35,183 bases of DNA from positions 1 to 35,183 of the forward strand of contig JABHSO010000116.1 in NCBI GenBank assembly GCA_018669845.1, written 5' to 3'. The translations under genes and the position numbers were made by a program. Below are positions 8,004-31,257 of the stretch, in pieces (position 1 is the stretch's first letter; each line of letters begins with the position of its first letter). A model generated the notes under the pieces. That model made no database searches. It was not told where the DNA came from and worked only from the letters and a program-made list of their open reading frames with translations. Origin of the DNA: Gammaproteobacteria bacterium (GTDB lineage Bacteria; Pseudomonadota; Gammaproteobacteria; GCA-001735895).

Positions 8004-8020
8004 ATTTAAAGTTTAAAGAA

Positions 8021-8108: not shown

Positions 8109-8157
8109 GTTTCTAAAATGTTCGTGTGAAATCAAAAAATAACTCAAGGTAAATTAC

Positions 8158-9831: not shown

Positions 9832-9841
9832 GGAGAGCATT

Positions 9842-10066: not shown

Positions 10067-10075
10067 GAGAAACTC

Positions 10076-10711: not shown

Positions 10712-10757
10712 AGTTATGCTTAAAAATAGATAAATATTTGTGGAATGATATTTGATA

Positions 10758-10824
10758 GTAGGGTGCTCCGTGCGCACCATTGGCCCTGGTACTGAAATCA
10801 AATGGTGCGCGCGGCGCACCCTAC
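10758..10824. repeat. REP-like inverted pair with GTAG foot (copy A1)
   Basis: Left arm begins GTAGGGTGCTCCGTGCGCAC (10758), right arm ends GGTGCGCGCGGCGCACC plus CTAC (10824). Each arm can itself fold as a short hairpin, and the two arms pair with each other. The final CTA provides the stop codon of the minus-strand P-loop gene (10821-10823). Confidence 0.9.
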
Positions 10825-11333: not shown

Positions 11334-11470
11334 TAGAAAGGTAACTCAGCCATTATTCCAATCAGGTTTTTATCTGGATCAATTAAAAATTCAATCCACA
11401 AACCATGATTTTTATTTTGATATGCGAATTCATAGGATGAATTTAATGTAAAACTACAGAAGGTAGACTG
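11333..11470 (-). pseudogene. Remnant of a second VOC/glyoxalase-like gene (C-terminal part only)
   Basis: Reading the minus strand, 45 in-frame codons run from just after a TAA (11473-11471) to TAA 11335-11333, without a start codon. The end, WIEFLIDPDKNLIGIMAEL, fits the C-terminal strand pattern of VOC proteins (EF.DPDGNL..LM). The stop overlaps the ATG of the P-loop gene as TAATG. I infer that the rest of the gene was deleted when the paa promoter region was joined here. A chance frame cannot be excluded. Confidence 0.45.
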
Positions 11471-11550
11471 TTATACAGTCACCGAGCTTAGTTCGCAATC
11501 TATTGCCCTGGAAACTCAATTAACCAATCAATTAAAGTGATACAAAAAAA

Positions 11551-11598
11551 TTGACTGTATGGTTGAAAAACGTATCATAATAGATATTGAATTATGAT
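11551..11598 (+). promoter_or_regulatory. paaA promoter with overlapping inverted repeat
   Basis: TTGACT (11551-11556) and TATCAT (11573-11578), 16 bases apart, form a plausible sigma70 promoter about 35 bases before paaA. ATCATAAT (11574-11581) and ATTATGAT (11591-11598) are perfect 8-bp inverted arms with a 9-base spacer, covering the -10 box and start point, a typical repressor position. The regulator (PaaX- or PaaR-like) is not in the window. Confidence 0.6.
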
Positions 11599-11617
11599 CA
11601 TCTCAGGAGGATGAATC

Positions 11618-12550
11618 GTGGAAATCGATCAGGAACAGAAATTCCAGAACAAGATTGATACCGAAGAAAAGATTGAACCTAAAGACTGGATGCCAGATGC
11701 ATACCGTAAAAATTTGATTCGTCAGATTTCACAACATGCTCACTCTGAAGTGATTGGCATGCAGCCGGAAGGTAACTGGATTTCACGTGCACCGTCACTG
11801 CGTCGTAAAGCCATTTTACTGGCTAAAGTGCAGGATGAAGGGGGGCATGGGTTATACCTTTATAGTACTGCCGAGACTCTGGGCATTACTCGAGAAGAAA
11901 TGATCAATGCGCTACAAGATGGTAGTGCTAAATATGCATCTATTTTTAACTATCCAACACAAACCTGGGCAGACGTTGGGGCTATTGGCTGGCTGGTTGA
12001 TGGTGCAGCTATCGTTAACCAGATTTCCCTGCAACGAACGTCTTATGGTCCATATTCCCGCAGCATGGTGCGTATCTGTAAAGAGGAAAGTTTTCATCAG
12101 CGCCAGGGGTATGAATTGATGCTGGCACTCAGTCGTGGCAGTGAGGCTCAGAAAGAAATGGCGCAGGATTCTCTGAATCGTTTTTACTGGCCAGCATTAA
12201 TGATGTTTGGTCCACATGATACCGAATCTGCTCATTCAGCTTCATCCATGAAGTGGAAAATAAAACGAGAAACTAATGATGACCTTCGCCAGAAGTTTAT
12301 CGACCAGACGGCTCCACAGATTGAGTTTCTGGGACTTTCTCACCCGGATAAAAATTTAAAATGGAATGAAAAACGCAGTCATTATGATTGTGGTGAAATT
12401 AACTGGGATGAATTCTGGCGAGTGATTAATGGTGATGGCCATTGTAACCGTCAGCGTGTGCAGCACCATATCAATGCGCATGAAGAGGGAGCCTGGGTTC
12501 GTGAAGCCCTGGTCAGTTATCAACAAAAGAAAAAAACCAAAGCCGCCTGA
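11618..12550 (+). CDS. paaA: Phenylacetyl-CoA 1,2-epoxidase, catalytic subunit A
   Basis: A 310-residue ferritin-like di-iron oxygenase subunit (E. coli PaaA is 309). The helix pairs carrying carboxylate/His ligands are visible in [20 protein letters not shown] and [26 protein letters not shown] and PHDTESAHS are also family-typical. With PaaC it converts phenylacetyl-CoA to the ring 1,2-epoxide, fed electrons by PaaE. Start is GTG 11618, with AGGAGG 7 bases upstream; the ATG at 11611 is out of frame. It is the first gene of paaABCDE. Confidence 0.96.
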
Positions 12551-12573
12551 GGGTGGAAAACAGGAGATAAAAA

Positions 12574-12861
12574 ATGTCAGCAGAAAATTTACAACTGTTT
12601 GAAATCTTTCTTCGTTCCAGGCGTGGTCTTGATCATAAACATGTTGGTAGTCTACATGCAGAAGATCATGAACAGGCTCTTGAATATGCACGTGATGTAT
12701 ATACGCGTCGAGGTGAAGGGGTCAGTATCTGGGTCGTAAAATCGGATGATATCTGTGCTTCTCAGGAAGACGATAGTGAAAGTTTTTATGATCCCTCAAA
12801 TGATAAACCTTACCGTCTGGCGACTTATTACAAGTTACCGGATGAAGTTAACAACATGTAA
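12574..12861 (+). CDS. paaB: Phenylacetyl-CoA epoxidase subunit B
   Basis: A 95-residue protein (E. coli PaaB is 95) with the family landmarks LFEIFLRSRRGLDHKHVGSL, YTRRGEGVSIWVV and the tail PYRLATYYKLPDEV. PaaB bridges PaaAC heterodimers and is needed for activity although it has no catalytic residues. AGGAGA lies 7 bases before ATG. Its stop overlaps the probable paaC start (TAATG). Confidence 0.96.
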   Translation: MSAENLQLFEIFLRSRRGLDHKHVGSLHAEDHEQALEYARDVYTRRGEGVSIWVVKSDDICASQEDDSESFYDPSNDKPYRLATYYKLPDEVNNM

Positions 12862-13637
12862 TGGTGATGACCATGAATGATGAAACTAAACAGGCTGTTC
12901 TGAATTTCACCGTACGCCTGGGTGATGATGCAGTGGTTATGGGCCATCGTGTTGCTGAGTGGTGTAGAAATGCTCCTTTTCTTGAAGAGGATCTGGCGCT
13001 TAGCAATGTTGCTCTCGACTTTATTGGTCGTGCCAGAATGTTTTATGGTTATGCAGCGGAGCTTGCCAATGATGGTCGTAAAGAAGATGACTTTGCCTAT
13101 ATGCGTGATCATCGTGAATACCAGAATTTATTGATTATGGAATTACCTCGAGGTGATTTTGCCTACACCATGGTTCGTCAATTGCTGGTCGATGTATTCA
13201 ATTTATATTATCTGGAGCAGTTAATGAAATCGACAGATGAAATGCTGGCTGCCATTGCTGCAAAATCCATCAAGGAAACTCGTTACCATCTTCGCCGCAG
13301 CCAGGAATGGGTGCTGCGTCTGGGTTTGGGCACAGAAGAAAGCAAATCTCGTGCGCAGAAAGCACTGGATGATATCTGGGGATTTACCCATGAACTTTTT
13401 GATCTGGATGAATTGGAACAGCAAATGGCAGGTGCCGGTATTGGTGTTGATAATGGAAGTCTAAAAGAAAGTTGGTCTTTAAAAGTTAAGGCTATTCTGC
13501 TGGAAGCTTCGTTGACAGTTCCTGAAGATGGTTGGAAAGTCAAAGGTGGTCGTGAAGGTTATCATACTGAATACCTGGGACAGATGTTAAATGAAATGCA
13601 GTGTGTACATCGGGCTAACCCTGGGCTTGAGTGGTAA
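12861..13637 (+). CDS. paaC: Phenylacetyl-CoA epoxidase structural subunit C
   Basis: A 258-residue ferritin-fold partner of PaaA (E. coli PaaC about 248). LGDDAVVMGHRVAEWC, LALSNVALDFIGRAR and the conserved KEDDFAYMRDHREYQN and MVRQLLVDVF segments identify it; its own metal site is degenerate across the family and it supplies the structural half of the heterodimer. The start at 12861 is translationally coupled to paaB; ATGs at 12867 and 12873 are alternatives that shorten it by 2 or 4 residues. No strong ribosome site precedes any of them. Confidence 0.95.
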   Translation: MVMTMNDETKQAVLNFTVRLGDDAVVMGHRVAEWCRNAPFLEEDLALSNVALDFIGRARMFYGYAAELANDGRKEDDFAYMRDHREYQNLLIMELPRGDFAYTMVRQLLVDVFNLYYLEQLMKSTDEMLAAIAAKSIKETRYHLRRSQEWVLRLGLGTEESKSRAQKALDDIWGFTHELFDLDELEQQMAGAGIGVDNGSLKESWSLKVKAILLEASLTVPEDGWKVKGGREGYHTEYLGQMLNEMQCVHRANPGLEW

Positions 13638-13639
13638 TC

Positions 13640-14176
13640 ATGTCGCAGATTCCGCCACTGGTTGCTGCTGTTTATTCTGAACGTTTAACACGACGAAACG
13701 AATCTGTGCTGACAGAAATATGGGATTTGCTGGATCAGGTTAAAGACCCGGAGATTCCTGTGCTGAGTATTTGGGATCTCGGAGTATTAACCCAGGTAGA
13801 AATGCAGCAGGAAAACCTACTGATTTCAATTACACCGACTTATTCGGGCTGTCCGGCGATGGATACTATTAGAGATGATATCAGCAGTTTATTGGTCGAA
13901 GGTGGATACCAAAATTTTTCTATTAAACTGGTATTGTCTCCCGTCTGGAGTACCGATTTGATGTCTCCGGAAGGTAAAGCAAACTTGCAGCAATATGGGA
14001 TTGCTCCACCCGTTTCTAATGCAAGTTGCAATAGCGATGAATGCTTGAAGATTAGCTGTCCACACTGTGGCTCTTTAAATACGAAAACACTTTCTCAGTT
14101 TGGTTCAACTGCCTGTAAAGCTCTGTATCAGTGCCAGGATTGTAATGAACCCTTTGATTACTTTAAAAATTTTTGA
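13640..14176 (+). CDS. paaD: Phenylacetyl-CoA epoxidase maturation factor D
   Basis: A 178-residue protein with an N-terminal DUF59/MIP18-like domain (residues about 18-110; KDPEIPVLSIWDLGVL and PTYSGCPAMDTI) and a C-terminal zinc-ribbon-like CPHCG...CQDC segment. PaaD is needed to mature the iron centres, most likely Fe-S insertion into PaaE. The upstream in-frame GTG at 13631 overlaps paaC; ATG 13640, two bases after the paaC stop, is the more likely start. Confidence 0.93.
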   Translation: MSQIPPLVAAVYSERLTRRNESVLTEIWDLLDQVKDPEIPVLSIWDLGVLTQVEMQQENLLISITPTYSGCPAMDTIRDDISSLLVEGGYQNFSIKLVLSPVWSTDLMSPEGKANLQQYGIAPPVSNASCNSDECLKISCPHCGSLNTKTLSQFGSTACKALYQCQDCNEPFDYFKNF

Positions 14177-14186
14177 GGATGGACTG

Positions 14187-15281
14187 ATGTCCGATACCAA
14201 ATTTTACTCTCTCACCTTAAAAGACGTACAGCCAGAAACTGACACAGCGGTCTGTTTGACTTTTGATATTCCTGATGAATACAAAAAAACCTTTAAATTC
14301 ATTCAGGGGCAGTTTTTAACCTTAAAAACAACGATAAATGGCGAAGAGGTCAGGCGCTCTTATTCTATCTGTTCCGGTATTGATGATGACTTTATGCGAG
14401 TTGCAATTAAACGAGTAAAAAATGGTTTGTTTTCTAATTGGGCTAATGATTATCTTAAACCCGGTGATCAACTTGAGGTAATGCCACCCCAGGGTAGTTT
14501 CTATTCAGAGCTTAATGTTAAAGCAAAAAATTATATGTGTGTTGCAGTGGGTAGTGGCATTACTCCAATTTTATCTATAATTAAAACGGTGTTGCAGCAA
14601 GAACCTGAAAGCAGGGTGACTCTGGTTTACGGTAACCGTCGAAGTAATTCTGTGATGTTTAAAGATGATTTAAGTTTTATCAAGAATAAATACCTGACTC
14701 GTTTTCAATGGATAAACATCATGAATGAAGAAGATCAGGGGGCTGACCTGTTGAATGGACGCATCGACAATAAAAAAGGTACCGCACTGCATGCCAGTAA
14801 AATGATCGATATTCTGAGTACTGATGAAGCATTCATCTGTGGTCCGGAAGCGATGATGTCTGAAATTTCTCGCGGATTCAGGTCTTCTGGTCTGTCTGAT
14901 GAACAAATTCATTATGAACTGTTTTCTAACTCATCGGAAGATTCTGAAAAGATGATGCAAAAAGCACATCGAAGAATTGAAACCTATGGTGAAGATAAAA
15001 CCAGTAAGGTGACCGTGATTAACGATGGTCGTTCTGTTGCGTTTGATCTGATGACGGTAGGAGAAAACATTCTTGATGCAGGTTTGAATAATGGTCTGGA
15101 ACTACCTTATTCATGCAAAGCAGGCGTCTGTTCAACCTGCAAATGTAAATTGATAAAAGGTAAGGTTGATATGGATATATCCCATGGTCTTGAAGATCAT
15201 GAAGTTGAAGCAGGTTATATCTTAAGCTGTCAGGCGCATCCGATTACCGATGAAGTGGTAGTCGATTTTGATCAGAGGTAA
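14187..15281 (+). CDS. paaE: Phenylacetyl-CoA epoxidase reductase subunit E
   Basis: A 364-residue NAD(P)H reductase (E. coli PaaE 356). It has an FAD domain (RSYS, residues 57-60), a nicotinamide domain (GSGITP, 122-127; ICGPEAMM, 217-224) and a C-terminal plant-type [2Fe-2S] ferredoxin with Cys310, Cys315, Cys318 and Cys348. It passes electrons to the PaaA di-iron centre. I start it at ATG 14187, ten bases after paaD, with GAGGA 7 bases upstream; an open frame further upstream lies inside paaD. It is the last paa gene present: no paaF, G, H, J, K or Z follows; instead there is repeat A2 and an MFS gene. Confidence 0.95.
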   Translation: MSDTKFYSLTLKDVQPETDTAVCLTFDIPDEYKKTFKFIQGQFLTLKTTINGEEVRRSYSICSGIDDDFMRVAIKRVKNGLFSNWANDYLKPGDQLEVMPPQGSFYSELNVKAKNYMCVAVGSGITPILSIIKTVLQQEPESRVTLVYGNRRSNSVMFKDDLSFIKNKYLTRFQWINIMNEEDQGADLLNGRIDNKKGTALHASKMIDILSTDEAFICGPEAMMSEISRGFRSSGLSDEQIHYELFSNSSEDSEKMMQKAHRRIETYGEDKTSKVTVINDGRSVAFDLMTVGENILDAGLNNGLELPYSCKAGVCSTCKCKLIKGKVDMDISHGLEDHEVEAGYILSCQAHPITDEVVVDFDQR

Positions 15282-16744: not shown

Positions 16745-17071
16745 TTACTTTAACGTATAAATATATGCATTGATCAATGTACTATCTTTGATCTCAACAG
16801 ATGTAAGTACTCGTTCATATGCATCTCCTTCAAATTCATCCAGCTCTGGCCAGTGCTCGAAAATATTGTTGGAACTGAAAATAAATCCTTTAATTGTGTC
16901 GCCACCTTTGTCGAGAGTGATTCCGGGGTAACCCATTTCAGCTCCCCAGCCCTGTTGATGTAAATATCCTTTCACCGTTGCGTTTTCCCAGCTACCACCG
17001 ATGTTTTTCAAGATATGTTCGTTTGGGCGGCCAGGACCTAGTGTTCCATATACGAATAGCTTGTCAGTCAT
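16745..17071 (-). CDS. Gamma-glutamylcyclotransferase-like protein
   Basis: A 108-residue GGCT/AIG2-fold protein. The substrate loop is YGTL (Tyr8-Leu11) near the N-terminus and the catalytic glutamate is probably Glu81 in LDEFEG. Family members remove a gamma-glutamyl group as 5-oxoproline from peptides or gamma-glutamylamines. It is the last gene of the minus-strand operon that begins with a TRAP transporter and glutamine-synthetase-like ligase, so it could release the product of gamma-glutamylation. It starts 17 bases after the paralogous gene upstream. Confidence 0.85.
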   Translation of the reverse strand: MTDKLFVYGTLGPGRPNEHILKNIGGSWENATVKGYLHQQGWGAEMGYPGITLDKGGDTIKGFIFSSNNIFEHWPELDEFEGDAYERVLTSVEIKDSTLINAYIYTLK

Positions 17072-17088
17072 TATTTATTCTAATCACT

Positions 17089-17508
17089 TTAAACTCGTGA
17101 TTTATACAATTTGGCGTGTTCTATTTCATAGCTGGAAAGAGGGCCGCACTGAATATTTTCTGGATCAAGGTGTTCTTTAAGTTTCATGTAACAAAATACA
17201 TCGTGAACATGGAAGTGTTTAAGACTTTTTACCTGTATTTGAATACGTCGATAACCATCTTCCTTGTTGATACTTTCAAGTTTATCCATTTTTTTAAGTT
17301 GCTGTTTGTCGACCTGATAAACTTCCCCATTTATGACTTCTCCATTACCTGCATCATCGACTAGCCAGGGTGAGTGGCGGTCTCCAACCAGGTAAAGTGG
17401 GTAACTATTTTCGGTAGTAAATCTTCCTGGTAATTTTTTCCCCTGATTTAGGTGAAAATTAGGAAAACCATGTTTTAAAGTTGCATAAACAAATACTTCA
17501 TATTTCAT
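17089..17508 (-). CDS. Gamma-glutamylamine cyclotransferase-like (AIG2 family) protein
   Basis: A 139-residue AIG2/GGACT-type protein. VFVYATLKHGFPNFHL matches the glycine-loop region of gamma-glutamylamine cyclotransferases, but the usual YGTL is YATL (Tyr8-Leu11). MDKLESI holds the probable catalytic Glu78. It follows the amidotransferase stop by 14 bases. It differs strongly from its neighbour GGCT-like protein, so this is not a recent duplication. Its likely task is cyclising a gamma-glutamyl adduct to free amine or amino acid plus 5-oxoproline. Confidence 0.82.
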   Translation of the reverse strand: MKYEVFVYATLKHGFPNFHLNQGKKLPGRFTTENSYPLYLVGDRHSPWLVDDAGNGEVINGEVYQVDKQQLKKMDKLESINKEDGYRRIQIQVKSLKHFHVHDVFCYMKLKEHLDPENIQCGPLSSYEIEHAKLYKSRV

Positions 17509-17522
17509 TCAAGTACCTTGGT

Positions 17523-18224
17523 TCAATGTTTGACGAAATCTAAAACCCATTGTGTGAAAAGAGTATTGTCGGGTTTTAATGATAAAGAGTTAATACCTGC
17601 TTCTATTCGGTCAGCAGGAATTATGGCCCGACGCTCGTTCATCAGGGCTTTAGAATAATCCGTATTCCACTCAGGGTGTCCCTGAATGCTCAGTAAATTA
17701 TTGTTCCATTGAACCACAAAGTAGGGACAAAAGTCACTTTCTGCAATGACAATGGCTTCATCAGGTAACGAACTAACCTGATCTTTGTGACTTACAATAA
17801 TATTCAATTCCGACTTTGTTTCATGCATCCAGTCTGGTGTAGCGGTTATACGGTTGATCGCAATGCCAACTCCCCAGCCTTTGGGAGACGGTTTAACGCT
17901 CTTATTTTTAGCCATTGCGATGAGCTGGTGACCAAAGCAAATTCCGATAAGCTTTTTTTGATGTTGATCCAGCAACTGAATAAATTTAATTAGCTGCTGA
18001 ATCCAGTCAATATCTTCATATGCCCCTGCTCGACTTCCTGTGGTGATGTAGAAATCATGAGCATCAATATCATCGGGATATTCATTTAACTGGCAATTGA
18101 ATATATCAATCTCGAAAGTATCATCTATCGCATTAAACATGCGTTGTATCATAAAACTATAAGATACAAATTCGTTCTGGAGGTTATCCAGAACATCATC
18201 ACATTGTAAGATGGCAATTTTCAT
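17523..18224 (-). CDS. Class I glutamine amidotransferase-type gamma-glutamyl hydrolase
   Basis: A 233-residue stand-alone GATase1 domain. The nucleophile elbow GICFGHQL gives Cys96, and QGHPEW supplies His183 and Glu185, so the triad is complete. No synthetase partner is fused or adjacent. In gamma-glutamylation pathways (PuuD in putrescine, IpuF in isopropylamine catabolism) a hydrolase cleaves the gamma-glutamyl amide at the end; this gene, 11 bases after the alcohol dehydrogenase, is the best candidate for that step. GMP-synthase-like proteins of unknown role share the fold, so the hydrolase role is inferred from context. Confidence 0.85.
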   Translation of the reverse strand: MKIAILQCDDVLDNLQNEFVSYSFMIQRMFNAIDDTFEIDIFNCQLNEYPDDIDAHDFYITTGSRAGAYEDIDWIQQLIKFIQLLDQHQKKLIGICFGHQLIAMAKNKSVKPSPKGWGVGIAINRITATPDWMHETKSELNIIVSHKDQVSSLPDEAIVIAESDFCPYFVVQWNNNLLSIQGHPEWNTDYSKALMNERRAIIPADRIEAGINSLSLKPDNTLFTQWVLDFVKH

Positions 18225-18235
18225 TTTATTGAGTT

Positions 18236-19396
18236 TTAAAGATTACCATTTACAGCATCAATGAATATTTGTTGATATTGTTCAGCACTAAAACTGATCG
18301 GGTTACCACCGGCTGATGGGTCTTCAACAGCCATTTTTCCAACGGTTTCTGCCTGATCAGTATCGATATTGATTTCTGCCAGGCTATGAGGAATTTTAAG
18401 TTGTTTTCTCATCTCCAGTACCCAGTTCATGAAACCATCAAAGCCCGTTTCACTTAAGCCCATATATCTCGTCAAACGGTCTATACGCTGTTCAATCTCA
18501 GATCTATTGGCTTTTAAAACGTATGGCATCAAGATTGCATTTAATGTGCCATGGTGAGCATTAAACAAAGCACCCAGTGGGTGAGCCAGTGCATGCATTC
18601 CGCCCAGACCTTTTTGAAATGCGGTAGCGCCCATGCTGGAGCAAACCAGCATTTGAGTTCTTGCTTCAATGTCTGAGCCATCGGCAACTGCTCTGGGTAG
18701 AAATTCCTGTACCAGACGAATTCCTTCAACAGCAATACCTTCGCCCATAGGGTGATAAAAAGGAGAACACAGGGCTTCAAGGTTATGCGATAGAGCATCC
18801 ATTCCGGTTGCCGCAGTAATCATTGATGGTAAACCGACCGTGAGTTCGGGATCGAGGATTACTTCAGTGGGCAGCATGTTTGGGTGGAAGATGATTTTTT
18901 TGAGATGCTTTTCTGCATCGGTAATGACAGATGCACGACCTACTTCAGAACCTGTTCCGGCTGTCGTTGGCACAGCGACAACAGGAGCCATGGCTTCGAC
19001 ATTGACATGAGTCCAGTTGTCACCCACATCTTCAAAATCCCAGATAGGTTTAGTTTGACCAACCATCAGGGCAACCGCTTTAGCTGCATCAAGTGCAGAA
19101 CCGCCACCAAAGGCGATAACACCATCGTGTTTATATTCCTGATAAAAAGCGACACCAGCCTGAACATTTTCTCCCGTTGGGTTAGCCTGTATGCCAGAGA
19201 AAAAACCACAGCGAAGGCCTGATGCATTTACATCGTCCACTATTTTTTTAAGCATGGGCAGGGCAGCAAGTCCCGGGTCGGTAATCATTAGTGGAGCCTG
19301 CATGCCCAGGCCTTTACACAGGTCTGACAGTTCATTAATTCGGCCGGCACCGACCTTGACGTTAGTAGGATAATTCCAGTTTGCAGAATAAGTCAT
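18236..19396 (-). CDS. Iron-containing alcohol dehydrogenase
   Basis: A 386-residue group III ADH. The NAD-binding GGGSALDAAKA (about 97-107) and TTAGTGSEVGR (144-154) precede the metal ligands Asp200, His204, His268 and His282 (GMDALSHNLEA; GGMHALAHPLG; NAHHG). All four are present with the spacing seen in FucO. It would oxidise a primary alcohol to an aldehyde, feeding the adjacent aldehyde dehydrogenase (12-base gap). Next to a glutamate-amine ligase, a gamma-glutamylated amino alcohol is the likely substrate. Confidence 0.93.
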   Translation of the reverse strand: MTYSANWNYPTNVKVGAGRINELSDLCKGLGMQAPLMITDPGLAALPMLKKIVDDVNASGLRCGFFSGIQANPTGENVQAGVAFYQEYKHDGVIAFGGGSALDAAKAVALMVGQTKPIWDFEDVGDNWTHVNVEAMAPVVAVPTTAGTGSEVGRASVITDAEKHLKKIIFHPNMLPTEVILDPELTVGLPSMITAATGMDALSHNLEALCSPFYHPMGEGIAVEGIRLVQEFLPRAVADGSDIEARTQMLVCSSMGATAFQKGLGGMHALAHPLGALFNAHHGTLNAILMPYVLKANRSEIEQRIDRLTRYMGLSETGFDGFMNWVLEMRKQLKIPHSLAEINIDTDQAETVGKMAVEDPSAGGNPISFSAEQYQQIFIDAVNGNL

Positions 19397-19408
19397 TGTA
19401 TTGTGTTC

Positions 19409-20797
19409 TCAAAGTTCAGTTTTGATGTGGAATGATTTTGGTCTGGTGAGTGATTCATAACCCATCACGGATAGCGTACAGCCATGTCCAGAATTTTTAA
19501 CGCCTGTCCAGGCAAGGTCCGGGTCGAGGTAATCACATCGGTTGATGAAAAATGTACCTGTCTCTAACTGTTGACCAAGTTCTACGCCTTTATCGATATC
19601 GGTGGTGAAAATAGAAGCGGTCAGTCCGAATTCACTGTCATTCATTAATTCGATAGCCTGTTCATCGGAACTGACTTTTTGAATGCCGACAATGGGGCCA
19701 AAGCTTTCTTCAGTCATGACCCGCATATTGTGGTTTACTTCGGTAAGAATCTGTGGAGACAGGTAAGTAGAACCGGCTTTATCCAGTGGATCGTCAGCTT
19801 TTATTTGAGCTATGGCTCCTTGCTTAATAGCATCTTGTGTTTGTGAACGTACAAAGTCTGCTGCACTGGATCTAACCAATGGTCCCAGAGTTGTTTCAGG
19901 ATTATCTGATCGACCCAGTTTAAGTTTGTTAACCCATTCGACAGCCTGTTTTACATATTCATCATAAACAGATTCATGCACATAAACACGTTCGACACCA
20001 CAACAGGATTGTCCTGAATTATAGAAAGCACCATCCATTGTTGTATCGACAGCATTGGCCATGTCTGCATCTGCACGAACATAAGCAGGATCTTTTCCAC
20101 CCAGTTCGAGACCTATGCCAATAAAACGACCGGCAACTGCCTTTTCAACCATTTCTCCACCGGGTACTGATCCGGTAAAGGCAACATAGTTAATGCGTTC
20201 ATCTTTGATAACCGTTTCGGTATCGGCATGAGTCAGGTGCAGGTATTCAAAAACACCTTCGGGTACTCCGCCCGCCCTAAAGGCTTCGACCAGACGTTCT
20301 GCACATAAAGGAGTTTGAGCCGAGTGTTTTATGATAACTGAGTTACCCGCAAGAATAGCGGGTAAAACGGCATTGATGGCTGTCAGGTAAGGATAATTCC
20401 ACGGTGCGATAACGAATACAACACCGACAGGCTCACGTTGAATCCAGCGATCAAAACCAGGTTTGTCAGCAATTTTAATAGTCGCTAACCCCTGGTCAGC
20501 CAACTCGATCATTTTACGGGCTCGTTCTTCTGTGCCATTAACTTCACCAGCAGCAGAGCCGATAGGGCGACCCATCTGCCAGGTAATCTCGTTGGCAATT
20601 TCATCTTTTTTTGCTACAAAAGCATCTATGGCTTTTGTGCAAATTGCCTTGCGTTCATCCAGTGGAGTTTTCTTCCAGGCCTTTTGTGCGTTACTGGCAT
20701 TTTCCAGTGCCGTTTGAATATCATCCGTGTTTGCAAAAGGTCTCTCGACGTAAACGGAACCGTCAATAGGGCTGATAGTCTTTAAAGTATTGCTCAT
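19409..20797 (-). CDS. NAD(P)-dependent aldehyde dehydrogenase
   Basis: A 462-residue ALDH. Catalytic Cys265 lies in NSGQSCCGVER and general-base Glu231 in LELGGKDPAYV; APWNYPYL (131-138) and FTGSVPGG (207-214) form the cofactor site. I start it at ATG 20797 (MSNTLKTISPIDG); the frame is open 18 codons further but those codons lie in repeat B3 and have no family similarity. It would convert the aldehyde from the neighbouring dehydrogenase to the acid. The succinate-semialdehyde/gamma-glutamyl-aldehyde dehydrogenase group is closest by eye, but the exact substrate is uncertain. Confidence 0.93.
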   Translation of the reverse strand: MSNTLKTISPIDGSVYVERPFANTDDIQTALENASNAQKAWKKTPLDERKAICTKAIDAFVAKKDEIANEITWQMGRPIGSAAGEVNGTEERARKMIELADQGLATIKIADKPGFDRWIQREPVGVVFVIAPWNYPYLTAINAVLPAILAGNSVIIKHSAQTPLCAERLVEAFRAGGVPEGVFEYLHLTHADTETVIKDERINYVAFTGSVPGGEMVEKAVAGRFIGIGLELGGKDPAYVRADADMANAVDTTMDGAFYNSGQSCCGVERVYVHESVYDEYVKQAVEWVNKLKLGRSDNPETTLGPLVRSSAADFVRSQTQDAIKQGAIAQIKADDPLDKAGSTYLSPQILTEVNHNMRVMTEESFGPIVGIQKVSSDEQAIELMNDSEFGLTASIFTTDIDKGVELGQQLETGTFFINRCDYLDPDLAWTGVKNSGHGCTLSVMGYESLTRPKSFHIKTEL

Positions 20798-20825
20798 TTG
20801 TTTTTCTCTTAAATTGAAAAATTTA

Positions 20826-20926
20826 TCACCACGGAGGACACGGAGGAACACAGAGGTTATGTCATTAAATTAGATATTAAAAAATAAAGGTTTTCCTCTG
20901 TGTACCCTCGTGTCCTCTGTGGTGAA
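20826..20926. repeat. Inverted repeat, CACCACGGAGG variant (copy B3)
   Basis: TCACCACGGAGGACACGGAG at the left pairs with the right arm ending GTGTCCTCTGTGGTGA. It is a sequence variant (GGAGG instead of GAAG) of the B family, between the ligase and aldehyde dehydrogenase genes inside the operon. Confidence 0.85.
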
Positions 20927-20940
20927 AATGGTTTTGGGTT

Positions 20941-22311
20941 TTAAATAATCTCGAAATACCGCTCCATTTCCCAGTCGGTAATGTGTTTTCTGAATTCGCG
21001 TTCTTCCCATTCTCTGGAAGCTGCAAAGTGTTCTACAAAAGCATCTCCAAATAAGGAGCGTGCTGCAGTTGAAGCTTTTAATGCCTGGGCTGAATCCCAT
21101 AATGTTCGGGGCAGGGCAAGGTGCTCAGGGTGTTTTTGGTCATAGGCATTGCCTTTGACCTGTGCTTCGGGTTCGAGTTTGTTTTCGATGCCATATAAAC
21201 CAGCACCCAGAGCCGCAGCTAATGCCAGATAAGGGTTTGCGTCTGCTGACCCTAAACGGTGTTCAACTCTTTGGGATTTTTCACTACCGGGAATGACTCG
21301 TAAAGCTGTGGTTCTGTTTTCAACTCCCCAGGTTGCATCAGTCGGTGCCCAGAAACCGGGAATCAGTCGTGAATAACTATTGATAGTGGGGGAGGTCATG
21401 CATAATAACTGAGGCATCAGTTTTTGTTGTCCGGCCACAAAATGGCGTTGTAAATCACTCATGTTATGTGGCTTATTTGCATCATGAAATGCTGAACCTG
21501 AACCGTCTTTATGTCTAAGTGAAATATGGATATGTCCACTCTGACCCGGATAATCATTCGACCACTTGGCCATGAAAGTCGCCATTAAGCCATTATGCTG
21601 GGCAAGAACTTTCATGAAGGTTTTAAACAGGGCTCCTTTATCAGCAGCATTGAGTGCACTATCGACATTGATAGCAGCTTCAATAACACCGGGGCCTGTT
21701 TCGGTATGTAAACCTTCAATAGGAAAATCCATTTTTTCAGATAATTCCATGATTTCTGTGTATAGATCTGCGTGTACTGAATTACGAATCATGGAATAAC
21801 CAAACCAGCCTGGAGTCATCGGTTTTAGGTCGGTGAAGTTCTTTTCACGGATGCTGTCGGGAGTTTCTTCAAACAGGAAAAACTCATATTCCAGAGCAGC
21901 ATAAGCATCTAACCCCATATCGCTCGCTTTATCGATAACTCGGCGTAATGCCGCGCGAGGGCAGACCGCTTCGGCCTGTTCAGCAAACTCGGCTAGAAAC
22001 AGTAACATACCATCTTCAAATGGAATTTCACGGCAGCTGTCTGGCAGGATTCGTACCGGTGCATCTGGATAACCTGTGTGCCAGCCGGTATAAGTGACAT
22101 TATCGTAAAGTTGATCTTTCACGTCCCAGCCCAACACCACGTCACAGAATGCAAAACCATGATCTAATGAGCTGAGGAATTTTTCACGAGACATATACTT
22201 GCCACGCATCACACCGTCATTATCAAACAGGCCTACTTTAACGTGAGTTAAACCGCGCTCTTCGATGATTTGTTTGGCATCTTGAATTGTTTTAACTTCT
22301 CTTGGATTCAT
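20941..22311 (-). CDS. Glutamine synthetase-like gamma-glutamylamine ligase
   Basis: A 456-residue GlnA-like protein starting MNPREVK. GS landmarks are present in order: ALEYEFFLFE (metal glutamates), HTETGPGVIEAAI, AKWSNDYPGQSGHIHISL (ammonia/ATP site), NRTTALRVIPG and VEHRLGSADANPYLALAA. The adenylylation-loop tyrosine of true nitrogen-assimilating GlnA is not evident, and the context (TRAP, ALDH, ADH, GATase) is that of PuuA/IpuC/GlnA4-type ligases, which join glutamate to an amine or ethanolamine with ATP. It begins 29 bases after the TRAP permease. The substrate amine is unknown; an amino alcohol is favoured by the downstream ADH. Confidence 0.9.
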   Translation of the reverse strand: MNPREVKTIQDAKQIIEERGLTHVKVGLFDNDGVMRGKYMSREKFLSSLDHGFAFCDVVLGWDVKDQLYDNVTYTGWHTGYPDAPVRILPDSCREIPFEDGMLLFLAEFAEQAEAVCPRAALRRVIDKASDMGLDAYAALEYEFFLFEETPDSIREKNFTDLKPMTPGWFGYSMIRNSVHADLYTEIMELSEKMDFPIEGLHTETGPGVIEAAINVDSALNAADKGALFKTFMKVLAQHNGLMATFMAKWSNDYPGQSGHIHISLRHKDGSGSAFHDANKPHNMSDLQRHFVAGQQKLMPQLLCMTSPTINSYSRLIPGFWAPTDATWGVENRTTALRVIPGSEKSQRVEHRLGSADANPYLALAAALGAGLYGIENKLEPEAQVKGNAYDQKHPEHLALPRTLWDSAQALKASTAARSLFGDAFVEHFAASREWEEREFRKHITDWEMERYFEII

Positions 22312-22340
22312 CAATCAAATTCTCTAGTTATTCCTGGGGA

Positions 22341-23663
22341 TTATTTTGGATAGACCATTTCAGGTAGCCATAATGCAACCTGAGGAAAGGCCATAACAAC
22401 AGCCAGCGCAAAAACCATAATCATTACGAAAGGAATAATTGAACCGTAAATATCACGTAAAGAAATTTCAGGTGGTGCCATCGCTTTCATCAGGAACAGG
22501 TTGTAACCAAAAGGTGGGGTCATATAGGCTATTTGACAAGTGATAGTATATAAAACTCCATACCAGATTGGATTAAAACCTAGTTTGATAATCAGCGGGA
22601 TATACAATGGAGCCACTATAACCAGCATGGCAGTATCATCCAGAAACATACCCATTAAAATATAGGTTAACTGCATCAGAATAAGAACTTCCCAGGGTGA
22701 TAGCCCCCATTTATCAAGGAACATGTACTCAATTGCTTTAACTGCACCCAGTCCATCAAATACTGCTCCAAAACATAGTGCTGCGAGGATGATCCACATG
22801 AACATGGCACTGATGTTTAAAGATTTTTTTAAGGTTGCTTCTATCACCTGAAAATTAAGGCGACGTTTAACCAGTGCGGCGAGGGTAGCAGCAACAGCAC
22901 CTACGGCTGAACTTTCCACCAGGCTGGTAATGCCCATAATAAACAGTCCAATAACTGAAAAAATAATTAGAAGTGGAAGGATACCTGCCTGCAACAGGCG
23001 AAATTTTTCTGGCCAGCTTACATTCAACTCTTCAGCTTTCAGCGCTGGCCCGAGTTCTGGTTGTAATTTGCACCGAACAACAATGTAAACAATAAACATA
23101 GTTGCTAACATCAGGCCGGGAATAGCGCCTGCCAGCCATAACTGGCTTACCGGTTGGCGGGCGATCATACCGTAAAGTACTAAAACAATACTGGGAGGAA
23201 CCAGGATGCCCAGTGAGCTGCCTGCCTGTATGACACCGGTGACCATGCGTTTGTCATAACTGCGCTTGAGCATTTCAGGTAGGGCGATGCTGTTGCCTAT
23301 GGCCATTCCTGCAACACTCAAACCATTCATAGCTGAGATGGCAACCATTAACATGATGGTACCAATGGCGAGGCCACCGCGTAACCTGCCCATCCACACA
23401 TGAAGCATATTGTACAGATCACCAGCAATGCCGGATTCAGACATCATGTAACCCATATAAATAAAAAGTGGCAGGGTCAGCAGCGGATACCAGTTTAATA
23501 ACTTTATACTGGCACTGAAGGCCATTTCTGAACCGCCATTACCCCATAACATCAGTGCAGAAACCATGGCAACAAAACCAATAGCTCCAAATACTCGCTG
23601 TCCTGTCAATAGCATGACCATCATGCTGCTGAACATCATTAATGCAATTAATTCATGACTCAT
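22341..23663 (-). CDS. dctM: TRAP transporter large membrane subunit (DctM)
   Basis: A 440-residue permease with about 12 hydrophobic helices. Typical DctM features are the start MMFSSMMVMLLTGQRVFGAIG, the conserved SAMNGLSVAGMAIGNS and the gate-region GSSLGILVPPSIVLVLYG, and DDTAMLVIVAPLY in the C-terminal half. It moves the substrate with the sodium gradient. Its ATG overlaps the dctQ stop (ATGA, 23663-23660), showing translational coupling. Confidence 0.95.
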   Translation of the reverse strand: MSHELIALMMFSSMMVMLLTGQRVFGAIGFVAMVSALMLWGNGGSEMAFSASIKLLNWYPLLTLPLFIYMGYMMSESGIAGDLYNMLHVWMGRLRGGLAIGTIMLMVAISAMNGLSVAGMAIGNSIALPEMLKRSYDKRMVTGVIQAGSSLGILVPPSIVLVLYGMIARQPVSQLWLAGAIPGLMLATMFIVYIVVRCKLQPELGPALKAEELNVSWPEKFRLLQAGILPLLIIFSVIGLFIMGITSLVESSAVGAVAATLAALVKRRLNFQVIEATLKKSLNISAMFMWIILAALCFGAVFDGLGAVKAIEYMFLDKWGLSPWEVLILMQLTYILMGMFLDDTAMLVIVAPLYIPLIIKLGFNPIWYGVLYTITCQIAYMTPPFGYNLFLMKAMAPPEISLRDIYGSIIPFVMIMVFALAVVMAFPQVALWLPEMVYPK

Positions 23664-24199
23664 GAGGCAGTCTCAATTTCAGTTTCCAGTTTAATAGACT
23701 TACCGAGAAAGGTGGCAATGTCGCGAAATAATATGGCGAAAGCCTGCAGTAACATGAGGAAAATTCCTGTGGTCATTATAATTTTAATGGGAGCCATTGG
23801 AGGTGCCCAGGAAGAATAATTTTTTTGTCCATATTGAAGGGCGTATTCAGTGCTTGACCACCCGCCATAAAATAAAACGCCGAGATAAAATATCAGGCAG
23901 AAGGCAGTGATAGAGTCAACGAAAGCCCGTTTTTTAACAGGCCAGCGTTCATACAGTAAATCCATACGAACATGGGCATCATTTTGTAAAGTATAAGCAC
24001 CACCCAGTAGATAATAAGTAGCCATGGTGAACTGAGCCATTTCTATGACCCAGATATAAGGTGCGTTGAAGACAGAGCGGGATATTGCAGAAAAAATTAA
24101 TATACCCATCATCACAAAAATGAGGTACATGGTAATACGACCAACCGTGCGGTTGATTGCATCTACATATTTTACATACAACTTAAAAACTTTTGGCAA
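23660..24199 (-). CDS. dctQ: TRAP transporter small membrane subunit (DctQ)
   Basis: A 179-residue four-helix protein, the usual DctQ size. MYLIFVMMGILIFSAISR is helix 1, and GGAYTLQNDAHVRMDLLYERW is the DctQ signature loop. The reading frame begins with TTG (24199); there is no ATG until inside helix 1, and GAGA lies about 7 bases upstream, so TTG is the likely start. A weak start together with repeat B4 just upstream could keep membrane subunits below the level of the binding protein. Confidence 0.92.
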   Translation of the reverse strand: MPKVFKLYVKYVDAINRTVGRITMYLIFVMMGILIFSAISRSVFNAPYIWVIEMAQFTMATYYLLGGAYTLQNDAHVRMDLLYERWPVKKRAFVDSITAFCLIFYLGVLFYGGWSSTEYALQYGQKNYSSWAPPMAPIKIIMTTGIFLMLLQAFAILFRDIATFLGKSIKLETEIETAS

Positions 24200-24226
24200 G
24201 ATATTTCTCTATATTAGGAAACGAGA

Positions 24227-24317
24227 TTTTCACCACGAAGATCACGAAGAACACGAAGGGTAGAATGAATAAAACATTAATTTTATTTTCTTCGTGCTCT
24301 TCGTGTGCTTCGTGGTT
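24227..24317. repeat. Inverted repeat, CACCACGAAG family (copy B4)
   Basis: TTTTCACCACGAAGATCACG at the left and a right arm ending TTCGTGTGCTTCGTGGTTGA. It lies between dctP and dctQ, the place where many binding-protein operons carry a transcript-processing or attenuating hairpin. Confidence 0.85.
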
Positions 24318-24338
24318 GATTAAAAAATTACAAGTTAA

Positions 24339-25388
24339 CTAACCTCTATAAGGTCGACCTGCTTTTTCCATCGTGGCATTGTAATCTTTGAAAATTTGTA
24401 CCACTTTAGCAGCTCTTGGACTGGTTTTTGCAATTTTATCCCAGTATACATGAGCTGCATCTTCCACTGTTTTCCATTCGGCATCAGGAATAGATGTCAG
24501 TTTCATCTTGGTGCCGGTGGTACGAAGATCAGCTTCTCCACCCCAGTACCAGTACTGGCGATGATAGTGAGAACTATCCATACTCAGCTTGAACAGAGTT
24601 TTTAAATGTTCTGGCACTTTAGCCCATGCATCATCATTAGCGAAATAAGAACCACACCAGGCACCAGAGATATTATTGGTCAGGAAGTAGTTAGTCACAT
24701 CGGCCCAACCTACTGTGTAATCCTCGGTAATTCCAGACCAGGCAATCCCATCCAGCTCACCCGTTTGCATAGCAACTTCGATATCTTCCCACGGTAGAGT
24801 AACTGGAACGACACCGAATTGTGATAGAAAACGACCCGCTGTTGGGAAGGTGAATACACGCTTTCCTTTCAGATCAGCAAGGCTATGAATAGGGTCTTTA
24901 GTTGCAAAGTGGCAAGGATCCCAGGCACCGGCACTTAGCCAGGTAACGCCATCAATTTCATCATAGGACTCTTTCCAGATTTCATTCAAACCATATTGAT
25001 GGAACAGGGTTGGGACATCCAGGCTGTAGCGAGTAGCAAATGGGAAGTAACCTCCAAATACCGCTACATCGGCAGGAGAAGACATGGAATCATCATCTGA
25101 TTGCACAGCATCAATTGTTCCTCGTTGCATGGCACGGAATAATTCACCGGTTGGAACCAGTTGATCAGCAAAATACAGTTCAATTTCCATTTCACCATTG
25201 GCGGCCTTGTTAAATGCATCGATGGATTTTTTGATGACCTGCTCAGCAAGTGCTGGACCGGCATAAGTTTGTAAGCGCCATTTAATCTTTGTTTTTTTCG
25301 CTGCATGCACGAAAGGTGCGTTAACGGTTGCTACTGTCGCAGCGGCACCTATACCTGCTTTTTTAAGAAAGTCACGTCTATTAGTCAT
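24339..25388 (-). CDS. dctP: TRAP transporter periplasmic substrate-binding protein (DctP, Tat-exported)
   Basis: A 349-residue binding protein. The N-terminus MTNRRDFLKKAG followed by an alanine-rich stretch and VHA is a canonical twin-arginine signal, implying export in folded form. The mature part resembles the TakP/mannitol-chloroaromatic TRAP group (FTFPTAGRFLSQFGVVPVTLPWEDIEVAMQTGE region, residues about 180-215; AWSGITEDYTVGW). That group includes binders of carboxylates held with a metal ion, which may explain Tat export. AGGAG stands 9 bases before ATG. It is the first gene of the gamma-glutamylation operon, so its ligand is probably the operon's substrate. Confidence 0.93.
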   Translation of the reverse strand: MTNRRDFLKKAGIGAAATVATVNAPFVHAAKKTKIKWRLQTYAGPALAEQVIKKSIDAFNKAANGEMEIELYFADQLVPTGELFRAMQRGTIDAVQSDDDSMSSPADVAVFGGYFPFATRYSLDVPTLFHQYGLNEIWKESYDEIDGVTWLSAGAWDPCHFATKDPIHSLADLKGKRVFTFPTAGRFLSQFGVVPVTLPWEDIEVAMQTGELDGIAWSGITEDYTVGWADVTNYFLTNNISGAWCGSYFANDDAWAKVPEHLKTLFKLSMDSSHYHRQYWYWGGEADLRTTGTKMKLTSIPDAEWKTVEDAAHVYWDKIAKTSPRAAKVVQIFKDYNATMEKAGRPYRG

Positions 25389-25570: not shown

Positions 25571-26455
25571 ATGGCAAAGAAAATCACTAATCACCACAAT
25601 ATTGATGAGCTAATCAAAACTCAGTTTAATGACTTTAAACCCGCTGAGAGGAAGATAGCAAACCATCTTCTGTCTAATTACCCGATGGCAGGCATGGTAT
25701 CGATTACTGAGTTATCCAATGCCTGTGATGTTTCTGCACCGACAGTAATGCGTACTTTAAAACGCATTGGTTTTACCAGTTTTATTGATTTTCAGAAATC
25801 ACTAAAAGCTGAACTGAGCAAAACTTTGTCGGATCCTGTCGCTAAACATGGGCAATGGGCAACCGGAACGCCTAAAGAGCACATATTGAATCAGGCGGCT
25901 GAATCTGTGGTTTCTAATCTTAGAAATACCATGAAACAAATCAGTTTTGATACTTTCAATCAAGTGGTCGATTTACTGGCAGATGATACTAAATCATTGC
26001 ATCTGGTTGGTGGGCGCATAACTCATGCATTCTCAAGCTACCTGGGCACTCACCTGGAAGTTATCCGCAAGGCTGTTTTCAAGTTACCACCATCGGTCAG
26101 CTTATGGCCTCATCATCTATTGAATATCGAAAAAGGTGATGTAGTGGTTGTTTTTGATGTACGTCGTTATGAAGCTGACTTACTGAGCCTGGTTGAGCTT
26201 GCACAAAAAAAGGGGGCTGTTATCGTTTTATTCAGTGATCAATGGTTATCGCCTATTGCCAACCTTGCTGATTATACCTTTCCAATTCGAATTGAAGCGC
26301 CATCAGGCTGGGATTCTGGTGTGGCGACGCTGTTTGTAATAGAAGCACTCATAACGGCTGTGGAAAGTAAATTATGGCCTGATGCGTCAAAACGTATACA
26401 GGAACTTGAAGATGCCTTTGACTTTACCGGTCGTTTTAAACAGGAAGTTAAATAA
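25571..26455 (+). CDS. RpiR-family transcriptional regulator (HTH plus SIS domain)
   Basis: A 294-residue regulator. Residues about 10-85 form the HTH_6 domain (FKPAERKIANHLLSNYP; ITELSNACDVSAPTVMRTLKRIGF), and about 130-260 form the SIS phosphosugar-binding fold (SLHLVGGRITHAFSSYLG; KGDVVVVFDVRRY; VIVLFSDQWLSPI). RpiR proteins usually sense sugar phosphates or related anions, but members also govern amine and taurine-type catabolic operons. Its divergent position makes it the probable regulator of the TRAP/gamma-glutamylation operon. Effector unknown. Confidence 0.92.
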   Translation: MAKKITNHHNIDELIKTQFNDFKPAERKIANHLLSNYPMAGMVSITELSNACDVSAPTVMRTLKRIGFTSFIDFQKSLKAELSKTLSDPVAKHGQWATGTPKEHILNQAAESVVSNLRNTMKQISFDTFNQVVDLLADDTKSLHLVGGRITHAFSSYLGTHLEVIRKAVFKLPPSVSLWPHHLLNIEKGDVVVVFDVRRYEADLLSLVELAQKKGAVIVLFSDQWLSPIANLADYTFPIRIEAPSGWDSGVATLFVIEALITAVESKLWPDASKRIQELEDAFDFTGRFKQEVK

Positions 26456-30012: not shown

Positions 30013-30600
30013 CTATTCTGGTGTTATTCTTTCATGGTCCAAAGCAGGTTTAATAATGTCATAAATAGCCGGCCTGTTTTGTTTGATTTCATCGACAGTC
30101 AGACCTTCCAGTGAAAATGGAAACTTGATCCATTCCTTGGTGGTATGAATAAAATAATCGGGTTCTCGATCTGTTTCATTTCTGGCGGGTTTATACCAGG
30201 GAACCGCAACCCTTATGTCTTCAGGCGTGTTTTTGCGGCATTTTAGTTTTAATTCATTGATTAAAGCTTCGATAGTTTTTCCGGTATCGTAAACATCATC
30301 AACGATGAGCAGTGGATCATCGCGGTTTATATTTTTTATCAGATAGCTGAGGCCATGAATTTTAACCTGGCGTGACTGGTTCTCTATCCCGCTGTAGGAT
30401 GAGGTGCGAATAGCGATATGATCGGACTCTGTTTTACCGTAGTGATCCAGAAATTCCTGTACCGCTATGCCGATGGGTGTGCCACCACGCCACAGTGCAA
30501 TGATGATTTTAGGTCGGAATCCACTGTTAAGAATTTGTTGTGCCAGTTTAAAGGCATCATTATGCAAATCTTCTGAGGTTAAATATATTTTTTTGACCAT
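30013..30600 (-). CDS. Type I phosphoribosyltransferase-family protein
   Basis: A 195-residue protein starting MVKKIYLTSE. ALWRGGTPIGIAVQ (35-48) and the PRPP loop LLIVDDVYDTGKTIEAL (Asp101, Asp102, Asp105-Thr-Gly) are intact, so it should bind PRPP. The family includes purine salvage enzymes such as xanthine/hypoxanthine PRTases. The open frame extends 24 codons upstream but into the promoter region and without similarity, so I start at 30600. It is head-to-head with a paralogue at 30682. Confidence 0.88.
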   Translation of the reverse strand: MVKKIYLTSEDLHNDAFKLAQQILNSGFRPKIIIALWRGGTPIGIAVQEFLDHYGKTESDHIAIRTSSYSGIENQSRQVKIHGLSYLIKNINRDDPLLIVDDVYDTGKTIEALINELKLKCRKNTPEDIRVAVPWYKPARNETDREPDYFIHTTKEWIKFPFSLEGLTVDEIKQNRPAIYDIIKPALDHERITPE

Positions 30601-30681
30601 ACTAAAAAATGCCGGGAATCCTTGGTGGAAAAGAATAGTGATTATATACTTGAAGCCTGTTTTAAGTATCAAAAAAATTTA

Positions 30682-31257
30682 ATGCAAAAACAATTTATAA
30701 CATCAGAACAACTTTTGCTGGATTCCTATCGGCTTTCGATGAAGATTTTTGAAAGTGGTTTTCGCCCTGATTATATCGTCGGTTTATGGCGAGGCGGTAG
30801 TCCGGTGGGAATAGCTGTTCAGGATTGTCTGGATTACCTGGGCATTAAAACGGATCATATTTCAATCCGGACTTCTTATCGTGGGTTGGAGTCTTATCAT
30901 CAGATGATTGAAAACTCGGACTCTATTCGTGTTCACGGAACTCAGTATTTGATCGAAAATATGAATGCCGATGATTCATTATTAATTATCGATGACGTGT
31001 ATAGTTCTGGCCTGAGTGTGCAGGCCGTTATTCAGCGGCTTGAAAAAAAGTGCCGTCAGAACATGCCTTCCGATGTGAGAATAGCCGTGCCCTGGGTTAA
31101 ACCTGCAAAAAATAAAACGAATAGAATTCCAGATTTTTACCTTTATGAAACAGAGGAGTGGCTTGTGCTACCTTATGAATTGAACGGTTTAACGGAGCAG
31201 GAAATAGCAGAAAATAAACCTGTGGTGAAAGCCCTGGCAGATGGGCTTACCTTGTAG
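30682..31257 (+). CDS. Type I phosphoribosyltransferase-family paralogue with altered PRPP loop
   Basis: A 191-residue paralogue of the divergent neighbour: GLWRGGSPVGIAVQDCLDYLG and ADDSLLIIDDVY align throughout, including SEQLLLDSYRLSMKIFESGFRPD near the start. The PRPP loop reads DDVYSSGLSVQ (Asp104, Asp105, Ser108, Ser109, Gly110) instead of DDVYDTGKT, so phosphate binding may be weakened or changed. The start is ATG 30682; the frame opens earlier without similarity. Its stop TAG (31255-31257) lies in the foot of repeat A5, so the native C-terminus may have been lost or replaced. Confidence 0.85.
   Translation: MQKQFITSEQLLLDSYRLSMKIFESGFRPDYIVGLWRGGSPVGIAVQDCLDYLGIKTDHISIRTSYRGLESYHQMIENSDSIRVHGTQYLIENMNADDSLLIIDDVYSSGLSVQAVIQRLEKKCRQNMPSDVRIAVPWVKPAKNKTNRIPDFYLYETEEWLVLPYELNGLTEQEIAENKPVVKALADGLTL

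Follow-up and report, generated by a model that had tools for sequence, protein, structure and literature searches.

Gene content of the locus and its EtoX-like binding protein

The 35,183-nucleotide stretch of gammaproteobacterial DNA considered here (JABHSO010000116.1, referred to as the window) corresponds to contig C114 in a 4.5-Mb draft genome with a completeness of 97% and a contamination of 5.3%, so that every absence statement below applies to a draft. The window contains nine minus-strand open reading frames (ORFs) at positions 16745-25388 that follow each other without interruption. They encode the three components of a tripartite ATP-independent periplasmic (TRAP) transporter, a GlnA-like ligase, an aldehyde dehydrogenase (ALDH), an iron-containing alcohol dehydrogenase (Fe-ADH), a class I glutamine amidotransferase (GATase) and two proteins of the GGACT family (Table 1). 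The top match of each of the nine proteins exceeded the curated Pfam cut-off, and no amine oxidase was detected among them with Pfam. These results bear out the gene order, the family names and the lack of an amine oxidase that a previous sequence-only reading of the locus had described. That reading had also suggested a search for the same gene set elsewhere. The core set was indeed found again in other genera, which shows that the nine-gene run is not due to chance.

Table 1 Features of the operon region in the window, and ligase-ALDH-Fe-ADH-GATase sets lacking an adjacent TRAP system at other loci
Feature	Position	Strand	Family evidence
EtoX-like TRAP substrate-binding protein (DctP), predicted ethanolamine binder	24339..25388	-	PF03480; Tat signal TIGR01409
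TRAP small permease DctQ (EtoV-like)	23660..24199	-	PF04290, 92.3 bits
TRAP large permease DctM (EtoW-like)	22341..23663	-	PF06808, 240.4 bits
GlnA-like ligase of the type B clade, predicted gamma-glutamylethanolamide synthetase	20941..22314	-	PF00120, 339 bits
ALDH, predicted to convert gamma-glutamyl aldehyde to gamma-glutamylglycine	19409..20851	-	PF00171, 417.1 bits
Fe-ADH, predicted gamma-glutamylethanolamide dehydrogenase	18236..19396	-	PF00465, 171.2 bits; PF25137, 138.1 bits
Class I GATase, predicted gamma-glutamylglycine hydrolase	17523..18224	-	PF00117, 42.7 bits
GGACT1, predicted gamma-glutamylamine cyclotransferase (accessory)	17089..17508	-	PF06094, 73.7 bits
GGACT2, short GGACT-family protein	16745..17071	-	PF06094, 57.1 bits
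RpiR/MurR-type regulator, divergent from the operon	25571..26455	+	PF01380, PF01418
TRAP-less enzyme set, locus L117 (same genus as the window)	5378-10514		
TRAP-less enzyme set, locus L121 (same genus as the window)	6079-10789		
TRAP-less enzyme set, locus L125 (Legionella lytica plasmid)	9001-13648		

The intergenic gaps between the listed ORFs range from -4 to 26 bp, with the exception of those between etoX and dctQ (139 bp) and between the ligase and ALDH genes (89 bp). The latter gap would be wider still, since an internal ATG (position 20797) is a more probable translation start of the ALDH gene than the listed GTG.

The DctP protein of the window is closest to PDB entry 4uab (phmmer E-value 8.1e-164), with 234 identical residues at 321 aligned positions (73%), and the second-best PDB match follows far behind at 2.9e-15. 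The 4UAB protein, Csal_0678, is described in passages of PMC4646407 and PMC12410723 as ethanolamine-bound and devoid of the carboxylate-binding arginine. At the corresponding alignment column the window protein carries a phenylalanine, compared with arginine in five and tryptophan in one of six DctP paralogs (eight DctP matches in the genome, minus the window protein and one misread). The replacement of the carboxylate-binding arginine by phenylalanine fits ethanolamine as the ligand. The platform acidic residue of 4UAB is given as Glu220 in PMC12410723. The glutamate of the GITEDY motif (E222) is identical in the alignment with 4UAB, is invariant in all 14 aligned rows and was equated with Glu220 by counting with an offset of 3. 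Kinship with 4UAB, absence of the carboxylate-binding arginine and presence of the platform glutamate together assign the window importer to the EtoX-like proteins, with ethanolamine as its predicted substrate. A Tat signal was recognized by TIGR01409 (24.1 bits, cut-off 16.7). The suggested novelty of TRAP import of an amino alcohol by a Tat-exported protein was not borne out, since the PDB name of 4uab already refers to a Tat signal and EtoX of Phaeobacter is reported to bind ethanolamine with a Kd of 7.9 µM (PMC10132767). Another uptake cluster is possibly present on contig C121 of the genome (40167-46668), where a further TRAP DctP gene and an open frame of 1226 aa with a hydantoinase/5-oxoprolinase domain are approximately 4 kb apart.

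Ligase types and their transporter neighbours

The GlnA-like ligases encoded near EtoX fall into two types, type A being 29.5-34.7% and type B 67-80% identical to the ligase of the window. Both types form separate clades with a support of 100/99, and the window ligase is placed within type B. Its identity to three type A ligases was 30-32%. The PDB ligase 5dm3, which we take to be the Chromohalobacter neighbour ligase, scored 636 bits against the type A ligase tested (L012) and 228 bits against the window ligase. The genome encodes a canonical GlnA elsewhere (C129, 463.7 bits), whereas the window ligase reached only 225.4 bits with the GlnA model at a cut-off of 429.15 and is 24% identical to the GlnA of its own genome. 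On these grounds, an assignment as ammonia-type GlnA was dropped. The FDGSS motif of the canonical GlnA, presumably the ammonium site, aligns with YDNVT in the window ligase.

At least 583 stretches encoding EtoX relatives were obtained in a scan of genome contigs, and the best 80 were analyzed; all of these are at least 74% identical and hence do not cover the full diversity of EtoX. Genes were counted within 8.5 kb of etoX. DctQ homologs were detected at 75 and DctM homologs (69-81% identical) at 76 of the 80 loci. The ligase is of type A at 27 loci and of type B at 26 loci, whereas 27 loci, several of them on short contigs, lack a ligase. The amidohydrolase family PF05013 was found at 20 of the 27 type A loci, at none of the type B loci and at 7 of the 27 ligase-less loci; in two of the seven type A loci without PF05013, the sequence upstream of etoX is shorter than 1.6 kb. 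Conversely, a GATase is encoded at none of the type A loci and at 15 of the 26 type B loci (13 window-like, two of another kind in Thalassospira). ALDH and Fe-ADH genes each accompany the type B ligase at 25 of 26 loci. Type B ligases occur beside EtoX in genomes of Pseudomonas, Halomonadaceae, Vibrionaceae, Thalassospira and Sedimenticola. In two Pseudomonas loci (L054 and L057) a type A ligase set and the transporter genes are located on opposite strands, while other sampled Pseudomonas have type B. Alternative routes at the ligase-less loci were considered and dropped after inspection by eye of ORF beginnings at seven of the 27 loci (and at three type B loci), without a family search.

When the ligase types were mapped on the best EtoX tree (83 rows, quick method), eight changes between A and B were needed, and a single EtoX clade of type B was rejected by the approximately unbiased (AU) test (p 9.7e-5; 29 rows vs 27). 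Such an interchange is expected if both ligase types serve one substrate. The kind of hydrolase never contradicted the ligase type at the EtoX loci.

A second sample was selected by the ligase, which was detected at E <=1e-120 in 22 genomes, including the one under study, out of 369 from the class. In the other 21 genomes, stretches of 5 to 18.5 kb were examined, which contained an ALDH in 16, an Fe-ADH in 15 and a GATase in 10 cases; neither PF05013 nor GGACT proteins were found in any of them. Directly before the ligase gene, a homolog of the ethanolamine permease TIGR00908 is encoded at loci L182, L184 and L186 (371.4, 388.5 and 390.4 bits; cut-off 381.75). Since L184 and L186 belong to the same genus, these loci represent two lineages, one of which has further enzymes. 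At locus L084 of Litchfieldella, a permease with 550.7 bits is encoded between EtoX and the type B ligase, and the ALDH, Fe-ADH and GATase genes come after the ligase gene, so that this locus unites the two transporters with the complete enzyme set. The strongest indication of the ligase substrate is that ethanolamine transporters of two unrelated kinds are encoded next to one ligase. Accordingly, ethanolamine, which the sequence-only reading had offered as one example of an amino alcohol substrate, gained support from this neighbourhood as well as from the likeness to 4UAB and the phenylalanine in its binding protein.

The release step and known gamma-glutamylation routes

No match to PF05013 was obtained in the 97%-complete draft genome, and since this usual untagging enzyme was not found, a different enzyme would release the product. 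The GATase encoded in the operon is the predicted candidate. Its best and closest PDB match is Gamma-glutamyl peptidase 1 (9k7i, 1.4e-22), which we take to be a plant protein, and the Cys and His-Pro-Glu motifs are retained; gamma-glutamylglycine is its predicted substrate. GATases that are 31-38% identical to that of the window were also seen in another recurring neighbourhood of many genomes of the same family (L094-L116, e.g. L095), often beside a 236-aa ORF.

The best PDB matches of GGACT1 are entries named AIG2-like domain-containing protein 1 and 1vkb, and we take these A2LD1-type entries to be the mouse and human proteins. GGACT1 adjoins the GATase in five of six testable genomes of the family (the genome under study, G004, G006, G008 and G010; absent in G002), counting genomes in which the GATase shares 49% identity or more and leaving out G007, the contig of which ends too soon. 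Mouse A2LD1 is described as a gamma-glutamylamine cyclotransferase (PMC2954230). GGACT2 occurs in the operon of this genome only, is absent from the same-genus locus L117, gave no PDB match at 1e-3 and shares with GGACT1 a best local alignment of merely 20 residues. A GGACT gene was detected near etoX at one of the 80 loci. An ORF of the hydantoinase/5-oxoprolinase type is encoded in the genome, and the PxpA family yielded no match in it. Because of its rarity at EtoX loci, its absence from the 21 ligase-picked loci and the missing PxpA, GGACT was dropped as the main release enzyme.

The closest described systems are those of Phaeobacter MED193 and Chromohalobacter salexigens (Csal_0678). The Phaeobacter genes are given as RpiR, GGAH, EtoV, EtoW, EtoX, ethanolamine gamma-glutamylase, aldehyde dehydrogenase and gamma-glutamylethanolamide dehydrogenase, and the operon as induced on phosphorylethanolamine (PMC10132767). 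Its enzymes are designated ETAGA, GAADDH, GETADH and GGAH. The Chromohalobacter enzymes are listed as PF00120, PF00465, PF00171 and PF05013 in Table 2 of PMC9397018, and their pathway is called predicted in silico in PMC6529630 and demonstrated in PMC10132767. The window shares with these systems the TRAP ethanolamine-binding protein, the ligase, the ALDH, the alcohol-oxidizing dehydrogenase, an RpiR protein and the predicted intermediates, and it combines PF00120, PF00465 and PF00171. It differs in the ligase, which is not of the 5dm3-like type A but belongs to a separate clade, in the lack of a PF05013 match and in the terminal GATase and two GGACT genes. Furthermore, the binding-protein gene is the first of the window operon but lies in the middle of the Phaeobacter operon, which was likened by its description.

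In Streptomyces coelicolor, GlnA4 is reported as the ethanolamine gamma-glutamylating ligase (PMC6529630). As described in this source, its cluster resembles the window in a gamma-glutamylethanolamide synthetase, an ALDH and a 'glutamine amidotransferase' named in the legend of Fig 2, although SCO1615 is assigned to the formylglutamate amidohydrolase family in the Discussion. It deviates in a short-chain dehydrogenase in place of the Fe-ADH, and the legend names no TRAP transporter.

The Ipu route of isopropylamine is a further system for comparison, and we read a cluster on Arthrobacter plasmid pZXY22 as ipu-like. Likewise, it encodes a GlnA-like ligase (37-39% identical to that of the window), an ALDH and a GATase, but its ligase gene adjoins one for a short-chain dehydrogenase, it contains genes for a P450, a ferredoxin and a zinc-type ADH, lacks an annotated Fe-ADH, and its GATase is of the Peptidase_C26 type with 18% identity to the window protein. 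An alkyl oxygenase of this kind (P450 and ferredoxin) was not found among the nine operon proteins. The Puu putrescine route of E. coli K-12 shows the same sequence of tagging, oxidation, ALDH reaction and release, but it uses the oxidase PuuB, and its PuuD and ligase are 19% and 31% identical to the GATase and ligase of the window. A polyamine route was dropped, as no gamma-glutamylputrescine oxidase is present among the nine proteins, and so was the Eut ammonia-lyase route, since EutB had no match in the draft genome. A type B enzyme set beside EtoX was not described in the titles, abstract beginnings and passages of the literature searched, which excluded subscription papers.

With respect to regulation, the divergently encoded RpiR-type protein is likely the regulator of the operon. 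RpiR homologs were located within 8.5 kb of etoX at 18 of the 27 type A loci and at five of the 26 type B loci. A search for an operator in the gap between the RpiR gene and etoX revealed short near-palindromes only. Promoter-like sites were not in excess (17 vs 22.3 in shuffled sequences), and terminator-like sites were so only slightly (10 vs 7.8). Close to the operon, a formate-tetrahydrofolate ligase is encoded, which may be a coincidence. Elsewhere in the window, past a gene of the major facilitator superfamily, the plus strand carries phenylacetate catabolism genes (11618-15281; two PaaA/PaaC-family proteins, PaaD and a PaaE-like reductase). In addition, two divergent paralogous ORFs with overlapping starts were found at 30013-30672 (minus strand) and 30622-31257 (plus strand), which are 48% identical over 186 residues and, by eye and without a family scan, phosphoribosyltransferase-like.

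Predicted ethanolamine-to-glycine route and its alternatives

These data make it likely that the nine genes combine an EtoX-type TRAP transporter with enzymes converting imported ethanolamine to glycine via gamma-glutamyl intermediates, the enzyme activities being deduced from families and context. In this route, the Tat-exported EtoX-like protein would capture ethanolamine for import by DctQM, and the GlnA-like ligase would join it to glutamate at the expense of ATP. The Fe-ADH would oxidize the hydroxyl group to an aldehyde with the gamma-glutamyl tag kept, and the ALDH would convert the tagged aldehyde to gamma-glutamylglycine. The class I GATase, acting as gamma-glutamyl peptidase, would then free glycine and regenerate glutamate, and the GGACT proteins might clear stray gamma-glutamyl amines or provide a second release route via 5-oxoproline. 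The resulting glycine could feed the glycine cleavage system, the P protein of which (glycine decarboxylase) is encoded in the genome.

The logic of the genes equals that of the Phaeobacter operon, and the window probably follows the published route. By its sequences, the window represents a distinct version, with a ligase of a separate clade, a GATase within the operon and no PF05013 detected in the draft genome. A system that would work like the published pathway with a transporter of the EtoX kind, but departs from it in two features of the enzyme set, is a variant of the published system. Consequently, the amino-alcohol uptake, gamma-glutamylation, oxidation by Fe-ADH and ALDH and release proposed by the sequence-only reading stand as a prediction supported by family and context. 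This logic had, however, already been published for Chromohalobacter, Agrobacterium and Phaeobacter, and it had been overlooked that the locus is a variant with a ligase of another clade and no PF05013 match.

Several observations weigh against this interpretation. At 11 of the 26 type B EtoX loci (ten in Pseudomonas, one in Oceanibacterium) no linked hydrolase was found, and a hidden one was discarded after profiles of the GATase and PF05013 types gave no match on six-frame ORFs of these loci. Five of these 11 genomes were searched as a whole, four of which encode a 34% identical GATase elsewhere and one (L051) yielded a weak partial match only. A GATase was also not found near 11 of the 21 ligase-picked ligases, some of them on short contigs. 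As it is lacking near many type B ligases, the GATase is no obligatory cluster member. The well-supported independent pairs of ligase and hydrolase number four, which is too few for the association to be significant. A true EtoX was present at only one of the 21 ligase-picked loci (another match at 24% identity was discounted), and neither transporter was found in the examined stretch of 17. Three enzyme sets, those of L117, L121 and the plasmid of Legionella lytica, have no adjacent TRAP genes. Moreover, the permease of L182 falls slightly below the TIGR00908 cut-off, those of L184 and L186 share 99% identity, and the examined stretches of these two loci yielded neither an ALDH nor an Fe-ADH gene.

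The TRAP-less sets, of which L117 is from the same genus, and the single EtoX among the ligase-picked loci are what would be expected if the enzymes mainly salvaged ethanolamine from internal phospholipid turnover or detoxified amines, with the TRAP system as an occasional neighbour. The nine co-directional and mostly tightly spaced genes of the window and the permease homologs directly before the ligase at three of the 21 other loci argue against this explanation, which we regard as improbable while granting it more weight than the following ones. An operon for another small amino alcohol or amine, such as L-alaninol, 3-aminopropanol or isopropylamine, with an Ipu-like route and ethanolamine as just one ligand, appears quite unlikely. 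The window ligase is indeed slightly closer to the ipu-like plasmid ligase (37%) than to type A ligases, and, being primary alcohols, alaninol and aminopropanol could likewise be oxidized by an ADH and an ALDH; however, the DctP similarity to ethanolamine-bound 4UAB, the ethanolamine-permease homologs beside the same ligase and the different make-up of pZXY22 argue against such an operon.

A final release of glycine and 5-oxoproline by the GGACT proteins, with another role for the GATase, would agree with the retention of GGACT1 in five of six testable family genomes and with the hydantoinase/5-oxoprolinase-type ORF. This arrangement is held to be just as doubtful, given that GGACT occurs at none of the 21 ligase-picked loci (GATase at 10) and at one of 80 EtoX loci, that PxpA has no match in the genome and that the named GGACT relative acts on gamma-glutamyl amines (PMC2954230). 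Finally, PF00120 is matched over nearly its whole profile, as it would be in an ammonia-using glutamine synthetase with unrelated neighbours, but the canonical GlnA encoded elsewhere, the score far below the GlnA cut-off and the conservation of the cluster leave hardly any probability for it.

Beyond the ethanolamine-to-glycine assignment, there is about an even chance that a second module for this conversion, which has a ligase clade of its own and uses a gamma-glutamyl peptidase of the cysteine type instead of PF05013, has repeatedly been swapped with the published one under EtoX, and that in the family of the studied genome a gamma-glutamylamine cyclotransferase was added to this module for the recycling of wrongly tagged amines.

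Ethanolamine derived from membrane lipids is a source of nitrogen and carbon, and in ocean data EtoX is reported as common and also as expressed (PMC10132767). An annotation that expects the published ligase together with PF05013 would miss the type B version. For GGP1-like GATases and for GGACT proteins, the bacterial substrates of which are, to our knowledge, mostly unassigned, the operon also suggests a candidate function in bacteria. Along with the published set, the type B set would offer a clear test case for the assembly of the same pathway from two different sets of enzymes.

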